DNA of 43,222 bases from Polyangiaceae bacterium. Its GTDB lineage: Bacteria; Myxococcota_A; Polyangia; Nannocystales; Nannocystaceae. Where the stretch lies: NCBI GenBank assembly GCA_026989935.1, contig JALSIN010000419.1:1-43222 (forward strand), written 5' to 3'. A program made the translations under genes and the position numbers. Of the stretch, positions 2,646 through 14,502 are shown piece by piece. Each line of letters opens with the position of its first letter. Position 1 is the first letter of the stretch. The notes under the pieces are model-generated. The model made no database searches and was not told the origin of the DNA. It worked only from the letters and a program-made list of their open reading frames with translations.

Positions 2646-4157
2646 CTACGCCCCCTCCTTGAACTTGATCTCGAACTTCTCCACGTGGAAGGCCTTGCGG
2701 CCGTGGACCTCGATGCCGCACTGGATCCGCTTGACCGTGTCGTCCACCGCCGGCTTCTCCTCGTTGCGCATCAGCTCCGCCACCTTCGGGTGGGCCGTGA
2801 CGAGGACCTTCTCACCGGGCGGGTGCACGGCGGCCTCGCGCCGGATCTGGCGCAGGATCTCGTAGGCCACGGCGGCCTTGCTCTTGGTGTAGCCACGGCC
2901 GTTGCAGTACTCGCAGCTCTCCGTGAGCATCCGTTGCAGGCTCTCGCGGGCCCGCTTGCGCGTCATCTCCACCAGGCCCATCTCGGAGATCTTCGTGATG
3001 TGGGCCTTGGCGCGGTCCTTGCGCAGCGCGTCCTGCAGGCGCCGGTAGACCTTGCGCCGGTTCGACTCCCGGTCCATGTCGATGAAGTCGATGATGATGA
3101 GGCCCCCCAGGTTGCGCAGCCGGAGCTGCTCGGCGATCTCGTCGGCCGCCTCGAGGTTCGTCTGCGTGATCGTCTCTTCGAGGGTCTTGCCCTTGGCGCC
3201 GACGAACTTGCCGGTGTTGACGTCGATGGCCGTCAGCGCCTCCCCCTGGTCGAATACCAGGTAGCCGCCCGACTTGAGGTGGACGACGCGCTCGAGGGCC
3301 CGGTCGATCTCGTGCTCGATGCCGTAGCTGTCGAAGATCGGGTCGCGGCCGCCGTACAGCTCGATGCGCTCGGCGTAGGCCGGCATGAAGGCCTGGACGA
3401 AGCGGACCATCCGGTCGTGCTGGGCGCGGTCGTCCACGATGACCCGGTCGAGGGCCGCGGTCAGGTGGTCGCGCACGACCCGCAAGGCCAGGTCCAGGTC
3501 CCGGTAGAGCAAGACCGGCGCGCGGTGGACGCGGGCGTTGGCCTGGATGTTCTCCCAAAGCCGCAGCAGGTAGTCCATCTCGGCGCGGATCTGGCCGTTC
3601 GTGGCGTCCTCGGCCACGGTGCGCACGATGAAGCCGCTGCCGGGCGGGCGCATCTGCTCGACGAGCCGCCGCAGCCGCCGGCGCTGGCGGCCGGAGGTGA
3701 TCCGGCGGGAGATCCCGATGTGGCTGACGGTGGGCATGTAGACCACGTTGCGCCCGGGCAGAGAGATGTAGGAGGTGATCCGCGCCCCCTTCGTGCTGAT
3801 CGGGTCCTTGACCACCTGGACGAGGATCTCCTGGCCCGGGTGGACGAGCTGGGTGATCTCGGGCGGCTGCCCGCTGCGGCGCGCCCCGCTTTCACCCACG
3901 GTCACGTCCTGGGTGTCGCCCTCGGTGCGCGGCGCGATGTCGCCTGCATACAGGAACGCGGCCTACTCCTCGCCGATGTCCACGAAGGCGGCCTGCATCC
4001 CGGGCAAAACGCGCAGAACCCGCCCCTTGTAGACGTTCCCCACGCAGCCCCGGGCGCGGGAACGCTCCATCCAGACCTCGGAGAGGATGCCCTGTTCGAT
4101 GACGGCGACCCGGCTCTCCGGGCCGTCGGCGTTGACGACGATGACGGATTCGGCCAC
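2646..4157 (-). pseudogene. rng: Ribonuclease G/E family gene interrupted by in-frame TAG at 3963-3965 (3' part 2646-3905; 5' part 3963-4157)
   Basis: Same reading frame on both sides: VAESVIVVNADGPESRVAVIEQGILSEVWMERSRARGCVGNVYKGRVLRVLPGMQAAFVDIGEE*AAFLYAGDIAPRTEGDTQDVTVGES...; catalytic AIDVNTGKF, LIIIDFIDM and CEYCNGRGY retained. Confidence 0.85.
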
Positions 4158-7119: not shown

Positions 7120-7138
7120 GCAAATGAAAATCACTTTC
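7120..7138 (+). promoter_or_regulatory. Fur-box-like operator overlapping the imelysin start codon
   Basis: GCAAATGAAAATCACTTTC matches 14/19 of GATAATGATAATCATTATC. Confidence 0.5.
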
Positions 7139-8284
7139 AAGTTCATCCCCTCCCTCGCACTCACCGTGGCGGCTTGCTCGGCCCCGGGGCCGGCCGACGA
7201 CGGTCAGGAAGCCACCCGGCGCGCCATCGTGCGCTCGGCGGCCGACCAGGTGGTGGTGCCGGCCTACCAGGCGGCGGCCGAGCGCCTGCGGGCGCTGGCG
7301 AACGCCACGACCACGCTGGCCGACGCCGCGGCGAACGATCCCGCCGCGGCCGATCCGAGCGCGGCGCGGGCGGCGTTCGCGGACGCGATGGATGCCTGGC
7401 AGCGCGTCGAGATGCTCCGGTTCGGCCCTGCGGGCCCGGCCGGCCTGGTCACGGGCGGCGAGAGCCTGCGCGACGAGATCTACTCGTGGCCCACCACGAA
7501 CCCCTGTCGCATCGACGAGGAGCTGACCGAGGGGTCGTTCGACGACCCGAACTTCTTCACCGCGAACCTCGTCAACGTGCGCGGGCTGGACGCGGTGGCC
7601 TACCTCCTGTTCGTCGAGACGCCGGACAACGCCTGTGACGCGACGCGCCCGATCAACAAGGACGGGGCCTGGGAAGCGCTCGGCAGTGACGAGATCACGC
7701 GCCGGCGCCTGCGTTACGCCGCCCTCGCCGCCGCGGACGCCGCGGATCGCGCGGCCGCCCTCGCGGCCCGATGGGCGCCCGACGGCGGAGACGCCTACGC
7801 CGGCTTCGTGGGGGCGGGCTCCGAGGGATCCCCCTACCCGACCACCCGCGTGGCCCTCGACGAGTTCGCCGTGGGGCTCTTCGACCTCGAGGCGGATGTC
7901 AAGGAACGCAAGCTGGCCGCGACGGACCCCGAAGCCCTCGAAGGCCGCTACGGCGGGCGCAGCGAGGCCTACGTCCTGGCGAACCTCGACGCCGCCCGCG
8001 CCGTGTTCCACGCCGCCCCGACCCCCGAGGCGGGCACCGGCTTCGACGACTGGCTGCGCAACCTCGGGCAGGCGGGGCTGGTCGCCGACGTGGAGGCCGC
8101 CTTCGCCGCGGCCGACGCCGCCGTGCGGGCGGTCGGTCCCTTCGACGAGGCGCTCGCGCGCGACGGCGCGGCCCTCGTCCCCGCCGCCGAGGCCGTCGGA
8201 GAGCTGACCGCCCTGCTCAAGGGGCCCGTCCTCGCCGCCCTGTCGCTCATGCCCCCGGCCGACGGCGCGGGGGACGCCGACTAG
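7124..8284 (+). CDS. Imelysin-family (Peptidase_M75-like) lipoprotein
   Basis: Lipobox LTVAAC; DAWQRVEMLRFGPAG, YSWPTTNPCRIDEEL, NVRGLDAVAYLLF typical of imelysin proteins. Confidence 0.88.
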   Translation: MKITFKFIPSLALTVAACSAPGPADDGQEATRRAIVRSAADQVVVPAYQAAAERLRALANATTTLADAAANDPAAADPSAARAAFADAMDAWQRVEMLRFGPAGPAGLVTGGESLRDEIYSWPTTNPCRIDEELTEGSFDDPNFFTANLVNVRGLDAVAYLLFVETPDNACDATRPINKDGAWEALGSDEITRRRLRYAALAAADAADRAAALAARWAPDGGDAYAGFVGAGSEGSPYPTTRVALDEFAVGLFDLEADVKERKLAATDPEALEGRYGGRSEAYVLANLDAARAVFHAAPTPEAGTGFDDWLRNLGQAGLVADVEAAFAAADAAVRAVGPFDEALARDGAALVPAAEAVGELTALLKGPVLAALSLMPPADGAGDAD

Positions 8285-8290
8285 CGCCCC

Positions 8291-11200
8291 ATGCCCGACG
8301 CGACGGCGTGGATCGGCGCGCCCGGCCACGACGCCCTGGCGTGGGCGCTGGGCCTTGCGGCGAAGGCGGCGCGGTCGCTCGCCGCCGCCCTGCTCGATCC
8401 CGGCGAGCGCCTGGCGGTCTACTACTGGCCCGGCGCGGCCGTCCTCGCCGCCTTCGCCCTGTCGCGCACGGCCTCCCTTCGCGGCGCGCTGGCCCGCACG
8501 CTGGCCATCGTCCGCCACCCGTCGTCGCGGCTCGACGCCAAGCTGGCGCTCGCGAACGTGGGGCTCGCCACGGCGGTCGGCGGCGCGGTGGGGCTTTCGT
8601 CGCTGCAGGTGGCGGTGACCACGGTGCGCGTCCTCGACGGGATCTTCGGGATCCCCGAAGCGCCCGCCTGGCCGCCGGTCGCCGCCACGGTCCTCTACAC
8701 GGCCGTCCTGTTCGTCGTCTGGGACGCGAGCCGCTTCTTGCTCCACCTTGCGATGCACCGGATCCCCGCCCTGTGGGCGCTGCACGCGGTGCACCACTCC
8801 GCCGAGGTGCTCACGCCCCTGACGCTGCACCGGATCCACCCCTTCGAGCGGGCGCTGTACGCCCTGCGGGACGTGCTCGTCACGGGGATCCTCGCCGGGG
8901 CCTTCTTCCACGTCTTCCGCGGGCAGGTGGCGCCCGTCACGATCGCGGGGATCCACGCGCTTTCGTTCCTGGCGAACGCAGCCGGTGCGAACCTGCGGCA
9001 CAGCCACGTGTTCGTGTCCTTCGGCGCGCTGGACCGGTGGTTGCTGTCGCCGGCGGCCCACCAGCTCCACCACGCCCGCGCCGCCGGCCCCCGCGCCCCG
9101 AACCTCGGCACGTGGCTTACGGTCTGGGACCGGCTCGCCGGCACGTACGTGCGCCCGCGGGGCGACGCGCCGCCCCCGTTCGGCCTGCCGCCCGGCGCCG
9201 CCGGCCACGACCCCAGACGGCTCGGCAGCGTCCTGCTCGCCCCCGTCGCGGCCTTCGTCCGCGCGCTCGTGCCGCGCCGAGGTTCCCGGGCCGCGCTGGC
9301 CGCCGCGGGGGTCCTGGTCCCCGCCCACGCCGCCGCAAACGCCCCCACGGACCCGCGGGCCTTCGAGGGTCCCACGGCGGTGGCCGGCCCGGCAGGGGAC
9401 GACGGCGACCCGCCGGCCGAGCGCACCGCCCCGGCCGCGACGCCTGGGACCGACCGGGCGAAGCCGGAGGCCGCGCCCCCGAACCCGGGCCCGAACGACG
9501 GCGGCGACACGACCGTGACCGGCCCGGCGCAGGGCGACGGCGCGACCCCGCCGGCGGAGGACGAAGGCGAGACCGCGATGGACGCCGGCGCGGGCGACGG
9601 CGACGAGGGCGGGCGCCGCCGCATCGAGGTGGGGTCGATGTTCGAGGGCGACCGGCGCGGTCGGGTGGCCGGCTCGGCGCACGTGGTGGACGAGCGCGAG
9701 CTCGCGCGCAACGAGTACGACGACGTGCACAAGATCCTGGCCGCCGTCCCCGGCGTGTACGTGCGCGGCGAAGAAGGCTACGGGCTGCGGCCCAACATCG
9801 GGCTGCGCGGCGCGAACCCCGACCGTTCCACCAAGGTGGCCCTGATGGAGGACGGGATCCTGTTGGCGCCGGCCCCCTACGCCGCCCCGGCCGCCTATTA
9901 CTTTCCCATGCCCACGCGCATGGCGGCGGTCGAGGTGGCCAAGGGGCCGTCGTCGATCCGCTTCGGACCCAACACGGTCGGCGGCGCGGTGAACCTCCGC
10001 ACGCGCCGGATCCCCGCCTTTCCCACCGTGCTGGCGGACGTGGCGGGCGGGCGGTTCGGCTACGGCAAGGTGCACGCCTACGCCGGCACGACCGTGCGCG
10101 GCTTCGGCGTCCTGGCCGAGGTCGTCCGCCTGCAAAGCGAGGGCTTCAAGCGGATCGACGGCGGCGGCGAGACCGGCTTCGGTCGCAACGAGGCCATGCT
10201 GAAGGTGGGGTACCAGGCCGAGGACGGGCGCGGCACCACCCATCGCGTCGAGCTCAAAGGCGCGTTCTCGAACGGCCGCGAGCACGAGACGTACCTGGGG
10301 CTTGCGCGCGGGGACTTCGAGGCCGACCCCTACCGTCGCTACGCCGCGAGCCGGCGCGACCTGTTCACCCTGTGGCGCAGCCTGGCCGAGCTGACGTACG
10401 GGCTGTCCACGCCGCAGGGCCTGTCGTTTACGGCGCGCCTGTACCGCCACGACATGCGCCGTCGATGGAACAAGTTCGACGGCTTTCGCGACGGGCCGGA
10501 CGTGGCGCGGATCCTGGCGAACCCGCAGGCCGGCGAGAACCAGGTGTTCATGGCGCTGCTGCGCGGCGAGGAGGACACGGCCGGACCCGAGCAGGCGCTG
10601 CTGCTCGGCGACAACGACCGCCGGTTCTTCGCGCAGGGGGCCGACCTCTCCGCCTCGTGGAAGGCGCGCTTCGGGATCGTGGACCAGGCGCTGTCGTTCG
10701 GGGCGCGCGTCCACCACGACGGCGTGGACCGGGACAAGACGCAGTCGGCCTACTGGATGACCGCGGGCGTCCTCGTCCCCGAGGGATCGCCCGCCGAGCC
10801 GAAGGTCCGCAACCGCGCGCGGGCCCTGGCCGGGGCCTTCTACCTCTACGACGTGGTCACGTTGTGGGAGCGCTGGACGATCGCCCCGGGGCTTCGCGTC
10901 GAGGTCATCGACACGAGTTTTCGAGACGTGCAGACGGGCGAGACCCGCGACCGGCTGGACACCGTCGTCCTGCCGGGTCTTTCGACCCACGTGTTCGCCA
11001 CACGGTGGCTGGGGCTGTTCGCGGGCGTGCACCGGGGCTTTTCGCCCGTCACCCCCGGCCAGTCGAGCACCGTCCGGCCGGAGGACAGCCTCAACTACGA
11101 AGTCGGAGCCCGGGTCACCCACCCCTCGGTCACGGCCGAGGCCGTGGGATTCGTCAGCGACTACCGCAACCTGAACGCCGCGTGCACCCTGTCGGCCGGG

Positions 11201-11725
11201 TGCGACCCGGGCCAGGTGGGCGACCAGTTCAGCGCCGGCCGGGCGCTCGTGGCCGGCGTCGAGTCCTCCCTGCGGGCCGCGCACACCTTCCGCAGGGGGA
11301 TCCGGCTGTTCGGCGGCGCGAGCTACACGTACACCCACGCCCGGTTCTCCACCAGCTTCGTGTCCGGCTTCCCCCAGTGGGGGACGGTCACGGCCGGCGA
11401 CGCGCTGCCCTACGTGCCCGCCCACCTCGTGTCGCTGTCGGCCGGCACGGGCGGCCGCCGCTGGGAGGTGTCGGCCACGGGCCGGGCGCAGGGCGCCATG
11501 CGGGACGTGGCCGGCCAGGGCCCGATCCCCGAAGGCGACCGCATCGGCGGCTTCTTCGTCCTCGACCTGGCGGCCCACGTGGACCTGCACGCGCGCCTTC
11601 GCCTGTACGGCCTGCTGCAAAACGCCACCGCCACCCGCGCCGTCGCCTCCCTGCGCCCCATGGGCGCCCGCCCGATCGCGCCCCTTACCTTCATCGTGGG
11701 GGTCAAGGTGCGCGCCCTGCCGTAG
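8291..11725 (+). CDS. Fusion ORF: fatty-acid-hydroxylase/sterol-desaturase-like membrane domain (N) plus TonB-dependent receptor (C)
   Basis: N-terminal His boxes HLAMH, HAVHH, HQLHH; C-terminal plug DVHKILAAVPGVYVRGEEGYGLRPNIGLRGANPDRSTKVALMEDG... then beta-barrel-like sequence; no stop between; possible internal GTG start at 9269. Confidence 0.88.
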   Translation: MPDATAWIGAPGHDALAWALGLAAKAARSLAAALLDPGERLAVYYWPGAAVLAAFALSRTASLRGALARTLAIVRHPSSRLDAKLALANVGLATAVGGAVGLSSLQVAVTTVRVLDGIFGIPEAPAWPPVAATVLYTAVLFVVWDASRFLLHLAMHRIPALWALHAVHHSAEVLTPLTLHRIHPFERALYALRDVLVTGILAGAFFHVFRGQVAPVTIAGIHALSFLANAAGANLRHSHVFVSFGALDRWLLSPAAHQLHHARAAGPRAPNLGTWLTVWDRLAGTYVRPRGDAPPPFGLPPGAAGHDPRRLGSVLLAPVAAFVRALVPRRGSRAALAAAGVLVPAHAAANAPTDPRAFEGPTAVAGPAGDDGDPPAERTAPAATPGTDRAKPEAAPPNPGPNDGGDTTVTGPAQGDGATPPAEDEGETAMDAGAGDGDEGGRRRIEVGSMFEGDRRGRVAGSAHVVDERELARNEYDDVHKILAAVPGVYVRGEEGYGLRPNIGLRGANPDRSTKVALMEDGILLAPAPYAAPAAYYFPMPTRMAAVEVAKGPSSIRFGPNTVGGAVNLRTRRIPAFPTVLADVAGGRFGYGKVHAYAGTTVRGFGVLAEVVRLQSEGFKRIDGGGETGFGRNEAMLKVGYQAEDGRGTTHRVELKGAFSNGREHETYLGLARGDFEADPYRRYAASRRDLFTLWRSLAELTYGLSTPQGLSFTARLYRHDMRRRWNKFDGFRDGPDVARILANPQAGENQVFMALLRGEEDTAGPEQALLLGDNDRRFFAQGADLSASWKARFGIVDQALSFGARVHHDGVDRDKTQSAYWMTAGVLVPEGSPAEPKVRNRARALAGAFYLYDVVTLWERWTIAPGLRVEVIDTSFRDVQTGETRDRLDTVVLPGLSTHVFATRWLGLFAGVHRGFSPVTPGQSSTVRPEDSLNYEVGARVTHPSVTAEAVGFVSDYRNLNAACTLSAGCDPGQVGDQFSAGRALVAGVESSLRAAHTFRRGIRLFGGASYTYTHARFSTSFVSGFPQWGTVTAGDALPYVPAHLVSLSAGTGGRRWEVSATGRAQGAMRDVAGQGPIPEGDRIGGFFVLDLAAHVDLHARLRLYGLLQNATATRAVASLRPMGARPIAPLTFIVGVKVRALP

Positions 11726-12048
11726 GCGGCCGCGCCCCCGCGCGCCCGCCGGCGGCCGGATGGCCACCTCGACGGCCCCCCGCGCGAGCACCGCCCCCGC
11801 CCCCGGACGCCCAGGACACGTCGAGCGGACCCGGCGCGGGCCCCCCGGGCAAGAGGCCGCACCCCCACGCGGGTAACGAGGGCGCGATGGGGACGCGGCA
11901 GGCGCAGGAGGTCCTGCGGTTCTTCGTGACGGTCACGGTGGGGACGGGGTACGGCTGCATGACGGTCCTTTCGCCCCGGAAGGTCGGCCGCGCGGCTCGA
12001 CCGTTGCGCGCCGAGACGCCGCGGGCGCCGTGGCATCCTTGGAGGCGC

Positions 12049-12495
12049 GTGGGTGCGTCCCGCCGACACCTGGCCCTCCTGCTCGCGGGCGCGCTCGGAG
12101 CGTGCGCCGGCGACGGCCCGGCCTCGACCGCCGCCGGTGACGGCCGGGCGCCGCCGCCGGGCACGTCGGGCGCGGGCGAGACGGACGGCTGCGCGGGGAT
12201 CTACGACGCGGTCCAGTGCGAGAAGGCCGGCCCACCCTGCCGCTTCGAGCCCGGGGCGTTCTTCGACGCCGACCCCGACCTCGGCTGCACACCGCATCCC
12301 CGGCCGTCGGGGTTTTGCACCTCGGAGGCGGCCACGGACCTGTCGGACGCCTGCTACGTGGATGCGACCGGCAGCCGGGTGGCCTGCTTCGAGGTCACCG
12401 TGATGCCACCGCCCGGCTGGCGTCCGTGCGGCACGGAAGATCCACCGTGGTGCGACCTGCGCGCCCCCGCCTGCTGTTGCGACGTGCTCCCGTAG
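12049..12495 (+). CDS. Small Cys-rich putative lipoprotein
   Basis: GTG start with upstream GGAG; signal LALLLAGALGAC; 12 Cys after the lipobox Cys, ending PACCCDVLP. Confidence 0.75.
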   Translation: MGASRRHLALLLAGALGACAGDGPASTAAGDGRAPPPGTSGAGETDGCAGIYDAVQCEKAGPPCRFEPGAFFDADPDLGCTPHPRPSGFCTSEAATDLSDACYVDATGSRVACFEVTVMPPPGWRPCGTEDPPWCDLRAPACCCDVLP

Positions 12496-13071: not shown

Positions 13072-14502
13072 ATGAACCGCGCAACCTTTCGTCCCCTCCA
13101 CGGCCCCGCCCCGTCCCGGCGCGCCCTCGCGGTCGCACTGGCGGCCGCCGCCGGCTGCACGAGCCCCGACCCCGACGCCGGTCCGGACGAGCCCCCCGAG
13201 GTCTATGCCTTCGAGGGCCGCACGGGCGAAAGCAGCGTCGCGTACGAGGGACAGGTCCTCCGGCTCGTCCTCATCGAGCTGCTCGGCACCGAGGTCGAAG
13301 CCTTGACGGACGAGATCGACACCGCGGGGTGGGTGCCGGCCGAAGGCGAGGTGTTCGCACGGCTGCTGGCGGTCTATCAGTACGACGCCGCCCTCGTCGG
13401 CTCGAAGCCCGTGCCGTTCGAGACGACTCCGCCGCTCATGCAGGCGACCCTGGCCGACCTCGGTACCGGCAAGAGCCTCCAGGGCAAGGTCGCCGGCAAC
13501 GACCCCGTGGGACAACACGAGGACTGGGAGGCGTCCTTCGTCGGCTGGCCCGGCGCGGCGAGCCCGGACGACCTGGTGCAGCGGTGGTTTTCCGAGATCG
13601 AGACCCTCGCCATCGACCGCGCCGCGGGCGACCCGGCGCTGGCGCCCGACGGCACGCCGATCCCGGTCGTCCACGTCTCCCCGGAGGGCCGCCACTACCC
13701 GGAATTGCTGTCCAAGTTCCTCCTCGGCGCCATCGCCTACTCCCAGGCCACGGACGACTACCTCGACGACGACGTACCCGGCAAGGGCATCTTGGCCGAC
13801 CACGAGGCGCTCGACGACGACAAACCCTACACGCCCCTGGAGCGGCAATGGGACGAAGCCTTCGGGTACTTCGGCGCCGCGCGCGACTACCTGCGGTACA
13901 CGGACGAGGAGATCGCGGGCCAGGGCGGACGCGATGGGTGGAAGGGCGGCCACCACGACACGAACGGCGACGGCGCCCTCGACCTGACCGCGGAGTTCAA
14001 CTTCACGCCCGCCGTCTACGCCGCGAAGCGGGACCTCGGCGCGGCGACCATGGTGGACTTCTCCGGCACGATCATGCGTGCCTTCCTGCGCGGCCGGCAC
14101 CTGCTCGACCGCACGGACGGGCCCCTGTCGGATGAGCAGATGGCCCAGCTTCGGGCCGAACGAGACCGCATCGTCGCCACCTGGGATGAACTCGTCGCCG
14201 CGTCCATCGTCCACTACCTCAACGTGACGATTGCCGCCACGGAGACCATTGGAACCGCCGACTACGACTTCCTCGCCCACGCCAAAGCGTGGAGCGAGAT
14301 GAAGGGGCTGGCCCTCGGCCTGCAGTTCAACCCGCGCAAACGGATCTCCGACGACGCGTTCCTCGCCCTGCATGAGGCCCTCGGGGACCGGCCGGCCCTC
14401 GAAGCCGGCGAGGCAGCGGCGTACGTCGCCGGCCTGCGGGCGGCGCGGGACCTGCTGGCCGACGTCTACGGCTTCGAGGCGGCCGACGTGGAGGCCTGGT
14501 AG
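13072..14502 (+). CDS. DUF4856-like lipoprotein
   Basis: Lipobox LAAAAGC; AFEGRTGESSVAYEGQVLRLVLIELL, HEDWEASFVGW, HYPELLSKFLLGAIAYSQATDDYLD. Confidence 0.75.
   Translation: MNRATFRPLHGPAPSRRALAVALAAAAGCTSPDPDAGPDEPPEVYAFEGRTGESSVAYEGQVLRLVLIELLGTEVEALTDEIDTAGWVPAEGEVFARLLAVYQYDAALVGSKPVPFETTPPLMQATLADLGTGKSLQGKVAGNDPVGQHEDWEASFVGWPGAASPDDLVQRWFSEIETLAIDRAAGDPALAPDGTPIPVVHVSPEGRHYPELLSKFLLGAIAYSQATDDYLDDDVPGKGILADHEALDDDKPYTPLERQWDEAFGYFGAARDYLRYTDEEIAGQGGRDGWKGGHHDTNGDGALDLTAEFNFTPAVYAAKRDLGAATMVDFSGTIMRAFLRGRHLLDRTDGPLSDEQMAQLRAERDRIVATWDELVAASIVHYLNVTIAATETIGTADYDFLAHAKAWSEMKGLALGLQFNPRKRISDDAFLALHEALGDRPALEAGEAAAYVAGLRAARDLLADVYGFEAADVEAW

Follow-up and report, generated by a model that had tools for sequence, protein, structure and literature searches.

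The locus analyzed here raises the question of whether an enzyme predicted to sit in the inner membrane and an outer-membrane receptor are truly encoded as one protein and, if so, how each half would reach its own membrane. The analysis was applied to a Polyangiaceae bacterium contig of 43,222 nt (JALSIN010000419.1, assembly GCA_026989935.1, forward strand), which as a whole is referred to as the window.

Conservation of the fusion ORF

An earlier note on this DNA had claimed that one uninterrupted ORF carries the three histidine boxes of a hydroxylase, followed by the plug and barrel of a TonB-dependent receptor, with a signal-like segment and a Pro/Ala/Gly/Asp-rich linker in between. All of these elements were located in the order described, and a domain search placed the three domains above the Pfam gathering cut-offs (66.3 bits against 31 for FA_hydroxylase, PF04116; 50.4 against 23.9 for the plug, PF07715; 88.7 against 27 for the barrel, PF00593). 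The features are as follows:

8291..11725, + strand: fusion ORF with ATG start, 1144 aa, internal stop absent; hydroxylase, signal peptide, linker and TonB-dependent receptor
8702..9145, + strand: fatty acid hydroxylase/sterol desaturase domain, aa 138-285 (Pfam PF04116, E 4.9e-18)
8744..8758, + strand: His box 1, HLAMH, aa 152-156
8783..8797, + strand: His box 2, HAVHH, aa 165-169
8999..9007, + strand: extra conserved HSH (H237, H239), invariant in 13/13 homologues
9059..9073, + strand: His box 3, HQLHH, aa 257-261
9269..9337, + strand: predicted internal signal peptide, VPRRGSRAALAAAGVLVPAHAAA, with the predicted cut after A347 (9331) or A349 (9337)
9332..9610, + strand: low-complexity Pro/Ala/Gly/Asp linker, probably belonging to the N-terminus of the mature receptor; 33% identical in the sister genome, an acidic linker being found also on the unfused receptor of G011
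9665..9988, + strand: TonB-dependent receptor plug, aa 459-566 (Pfam PF07715, E 3.6e-13)
10331..11611, + strand: TonB-dependent receptor beta-barrel, aa 681-1107 (Pfam PF00593, E 1e-24)

The junction DNA of the window is 82% GC, and base composition alone gives a chance of ~38% that the frame stays open across it. The open frame is thus weak evidence by itself, and conservation had to decide; at this GC content, the length of an open frame was not accepted as a sign of fusion in its own right.

A scan of the genome contigs gave matches in L003 and L004 only. The first of these, from the sister genome (Deltaproteobacteria isolate J032, G001), encodes the same fusion, with 1147 aa, after the same imelysin gene. 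The two proteins are 92% identical in the plug, 79% in the barrel and 77% in the hydroxylase, but the signal-like segment (38%) and the linker (33%) are much less alike, and the indels between the two genes preserve the reading frame. Among 19 relatives, the same in-frame fusion was identified in G001, G003, G004, G005 (truncated at a contig end), G007 and G009, so that it recurs in the sister and in at least five further genomes of the family, at identities reaching down to 40-50%. In G002, the hydroxylase frame leaves one contig end and the receptor frame enters from another; probably this genome also carries the fusion, broken in assembly at the repetitive linker. All seven complete junction frames are open, with a joint chance from composition of ~1e-7 if they were independent, a figure to be taken as a guide since the genomes are related.

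The compared sequences are draft metagenome assemblies and, together with the permissive composition of the junction, this speaks for an error in which a stop or frameshift between two separate genes was missed. However, at least six other genomes with the same fusion, its divergence and the frame-preserving indels largely refute such an error, which we regard as barely credible. The fusion is established because it is conserved across genomes with open frames and frame-keeping indels and, at the level of sequence comparison, it is confirmed as real and conserved and not an assembly artefact. Homologues that always encode two proteins, the second starting at the equivalent of 9269, would have spoken against it and did not occur. 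In the literature, no description of hydroxylase and receptor fusions was found. In the trees, G005, G006 and L004 branch without resolution, and the receptor fusion may have arisen once or more often. The receptor of G005 is also frameshifted near its C-terminus (L008:2753-3319, two overlapping frames), by assembly error or decay.

Export signals at the junctions

In all eight fusions, the hydroxylase closes with its usual C-terminus, immediately after which come Arg-rich residues, a hydrophobic core and, at -3/-1, small residues. This layout is kept despite the poor sequence conservation at the junction. The signals were scored by a rule-based scan, with composition-preserving shuffles as the control. 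Every junction (8/8) passes the signal-peptide rule, an equal score being reached by 0-0.2% of the shuffles (0.15% in the case of the window). For the window, where the hydrophobic core is Ala-rich and modest, the prediction (Arg-rich, hydrophobic, AxA) agrees with the Sec signal peptide and AHA-A site proposed before, and the predicted cleavage candidates are VPAHA/AANAP or AHAAA/NAP. The corresponding junctions read RRGRGRGVALLLVLSGLAGLVGEAQA/QAP in G004, ARRAASLGLLASLGLSSHARA/QSP in G007 and RKPWTPGVKLSVLAGGLLIPTTVTA/AEP in G003. Downstream, every fusion has a long Pro- and acid-rich linker (~110 residues in the window). In L013, L014, L018 and L019, the N-terminal linkers of the receptors contain a repeated acidic DxDLSD[FML], possibly a docking repeat for a periplasmic partner.

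The hydropathy maxima of the hydroxylase were mapped, with an Arg-rich loop at residues 61-84 and the His boxes held in Arg/His-rich segments. From hydropathy, the positive-inside rule and family knowledge, we infer that its C-terminus is cytoplasmic, which is where the n-region of a following signal peptide would have to lie. AlphaFold models, with a mean pLDDT of 29 for the full fusion (3 rows) and 36 for the hydroxylase half (2 rows), were too poor for use.

Other partners, a split pair and the uptake context

A second fusion was found in three genera of another family of the class (G014, G020 and G021), where the same hydroxylase is in frame with imelysin instead, and the receptor is encoded separately downstream and has a signal peptide of its own. 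Each junction is a lipoprotein signal (VLLLLGGC, AAVLLLSC and VLLCLIGC), with a lipobox in 3/3. A lipobox is meaningful only if signal peptidase II cuts there, as acylation requires cleavage. In G020, an ATG lies shortly before the lipoprotein signal, so that this one member of the imelysin fusions may have an internal start. In the hydroxylase tree, the three hydroxylases form one clade (100/97), adjoining that of G034, which is unfused and encoded after the DUF4856 and imelysin genes; its end, RLFKARGSA, corresponds to the point where the signal peptide of the window starts. As judged from these sequences, the hydroxylase is joined to two different exported partners, and each join keeps a predicted export signal of the partner's type.

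Genome G011 has an unfused hydroxylase of 370 aa, which follows DUF4856 and imelysin and precedes exbB, exbD and tonB (L021:5954-7814; ExbB, ExbD and TonB were identified by visual inspection of the sequences). This operon is compact but has no receptor gene, an unfused receptor being located elsewhere (L019). In the receptor tree, the latter nests inside the fused clade (100/99 with G003, G004 and G007), and in the hydroxylase tree the hydroxylase groups with that of G007 (89/92). Both placements indicate that G011 re-split an earlier fusion. Its free receptor has its own signal peptide and an acidic linker, DVDLTDF (compare DVDLSDF in G003), which argues that the linker forms the N-terminus of the mature receptor and not a tether. 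The unfused pair also suggests that hydroxylase and receptor do their work unjoined.

The neighbors of the fusion ORF in the window, where an Rfam search found nothing, are the following:

2646..3905, − strand: ribonuclease E/G family gene with a thioredoxin-like C-terminal domain (PF10150, PF20833), ordinary
7124..8284, + strand: imelysin (Peptidase_M75) lipoprotein gene (Pfam PF09375, E 1.1e-26), signal peptide with Cys (LTVAAC), 6 nt upstream of the fusion ORF
11959..12495, + strand: Cys-rich small lipoprotein-like ORF between the receptor and the DUF4856 gene, no Pfam hit above cut-off, operon membership uncertain
13072..14502, + strand: DUF4856 lipoprotein gene (Pfam PF16148, E 2.1e-15)

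In L003, the imelysin homologue and the fusion ORF overlap by 11 nt. Most relatives have the order DUF4856-imelysin-hydroxylase, with DUF4856 upstream, whereas in the window it lies downstream of the fusion; judging by this gene order, the operon of the window is rearranged. In L015:1-970, similar Cys-rich sequence likewise lies beside the receptor and is repeated immediately upstream of it.

The imelysin and DUF4856 neighbors, as well as exbB-exbD-tonB in G011, point to an iron-type uptake. It had been suggested that the hydroxylase works with the receptor's substrate uptake, and the operon context supports this as a candidate role. Imelysin-TonB receptor operons provide a comparison, the imelysins LruB and LIMLP_14180 of Leptospira responding to iron limitation and peroxide (PMC7567364); the window, too, has imelysin beside a FecA-like receptor, but neither a hydroxylase nor a fusion is described in Leptospira. 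The literature search on imelysin with DUF4856 found nothing direct.

Regarding the enzyme, 11 His are invariant in the 13 hydroxylase homologues, and HLAMH, HAVHH and HQLHH match the diiron motifs HX3-4H, HX2HH and HX2HH. The hydroxylase is thus probably an active diiron enzyme. It resembles the PF04116 superfamily in its domain and His boxes, the difference being the fusion with an exported partner. For this fatty acid hydroxylase superfamily, a membrane lipid would be the first guess as substrate. Assignment as the ornithine lipid hydroxylase OlsE was ruled out by the curated equivalog cut-off (NF052566, 43.7 bits against 475).

For the receptor, the nearest solved chain is FecA (E 2e-22), and the scores fall below the cut-offs for the FecA ferric dicitrate receptor (NF041676, 95.9 bits against 1100) and the TonB-dependent siderophore receptor (TIGR01783, 109 bits against 223.5). 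Plug and barrel are like those of FecA-like receptors, but where FecA has its signalling domain, the receptor of the window has a low-complexity acidic/Pro-rich stretch. Plasmid records contain unfused receptors at up to 38% identity and distant hydroxylases, with metal-efflux genes near the receptor in two of three records, and the hydroxylase and receptor together in none of the three plasmid neighborhoods. On the Aurantiacibacter atlanticus and Marinobacter salarius plasmids (L043 and L045), related receptors at 32-39% identity are surrounded by metal efflux genes of the CusA/CzcA and cation-diffusion types. Metals besides iron may therefore be involved in the ligand of this group of receptors.

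A candidate polyprotein and its rivals

Three models had been put forward for the fused ORF, namely, a polyprotein cut by signal peptidase, an internal start at GTG 9269 and a genuine tether between the membranes. We consider it probable that the gene encodes a polyprotein, with signal peptidase cutting near residues 347-349. This model is the best supported of the three given the predicted export signal at every junction and the lipobox in the second family. The N-terminal 325-330 residues would be a complete diiron enzyme of the fatty-acid-hydroxylase type, embedded in the inner membrane so that its C-terminus faces the cytoplasm. Next, the Arg-rich n-region would act with the hydrophobic core and AxA as an internal cleavable signal peptide, with Sec exporting all that lies downstream and signal peptidase I cutting there. 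The receptor, with its acidic/Pro-rich N-terminal linker, would reach the outer membrane along the normal pathway, and the hydroxylase would remain in the inner membrane, where its presumed target is a membrane lipid or the ligand that is taken up. The fusion would ensure 1:1 co-synthesis of two proteins from one iron-type uptake operon (imelysin, DUF4856, FecA-like receptor and hydroxylase). In this model, cleavage, membrane topology and enzyme substrate are the parts that we infer, whereas the sequences themselves document the fusion and its conservation, intact active-site motifs, the conserved export signal, the second fusion to a lipoprotein and the later split.

Initiation at GTG 9269 would instead yield a receptor precursor, with the fused chain a by-product or not made at all. 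This codon is well placed just before VPRRGSR and is still GTG in the sister, though nearby codons differ, and GTG, ATG or TTG codons lie close to the junction in some other members. However, GTG 9269 is common to the window and the sister genome only. In G003 and G007, ATG, GTG and TTG are absent from the ~40 codons between the conserved end of the hydroxylase and the hydrophobic core, and the first start-like codon lies inside the core (up to 39 codons on in G003 and 34 in G007), which rules out initiation close to the signal peptide as a mechanism common to all members. Moreover, no purine-rich ribosome-binding site was found before 9269 (nor before ATG 8291) and, as a stop codon is absent between the halves, ribosomes finishing the hydroxylase must read into the receptor. 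Internal initiation is thus disfavored, and we consider it unlikely. A permanent tether, in which the uncut chain would run from the inner to the outer membrane with the linker crossing the periplasm, would fit the length and the Pro- and acid-rich composition of that linker in all fusions, but not the small -3/-1 residues kept in every junction, nor the lipoboxes of the imelysin fusions. Also, the linker persists in G011 on a receptor that is unfused yet nests in the fused clade, and a barrel assembling in the outer membrane with an inner-membrane anchor would be unusual. This makes a tether very improbable.

Within the polyprotein reading, the uncut fusion could itself be a functional intermediate, whose release by signal peptidase waits for hydroxylase folding, iron loading or lipid binding; we hold this to be unlikely. 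It is likened to LtaS, whose processing waits for its glycolipid. If true, a membrane enzyme that depends on iron would, through its own state, control when an iron-uptake protein (the receptor or the imelysin lipoprotein) is delivered.

Internal cleavage of this kind has parallels. The FbcH cytochrome b/c1 polyprotein of Bradyrhizobium japonicum reportedly has an internal signal peptide and is cut after synthesis (Thony-Meyer 1989, Cell, listed among the references of PMC6256036). As in the window, one gene encodes a multi-pass inner-membrane protein and, behind it, an exported one preceded by an internal signal peptide; however, both FbcH products belong to one inner-membrane complex, the second product of the window would be an outer-membrane barrel, and the sequences are unrelated. 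A literature search on the FbcH polyprotein found nothing direct. In Staphylococcus aureus, the signal peptidase SpsB cuts LtaS after its multi-pass membrane domain, freeing the downstream domain (PMC10865820). LtaS is, though, a single enzyme of a Gram-positive cell, and in the window cleavage would separate two unrelated proteins.

To our knowledge, few natural bacterial polyproteins are sorted through an internal signal peptide, and the literature search found none described that delivers its halves to the inner and outer membrane, respectively. If the internal signal is missed in annotation, such ORFs look like impossible two-membrane proteins. With two partners (a barrel receptor and an acylated lipoprotein) and one re-split, these genomes provide a natural comparison set for the fusion of uptake genes and, as far as the sequences indicate, the fusion ties a diiron hydroxylase of lipid type to a TonB-dependent uptake of iron type.
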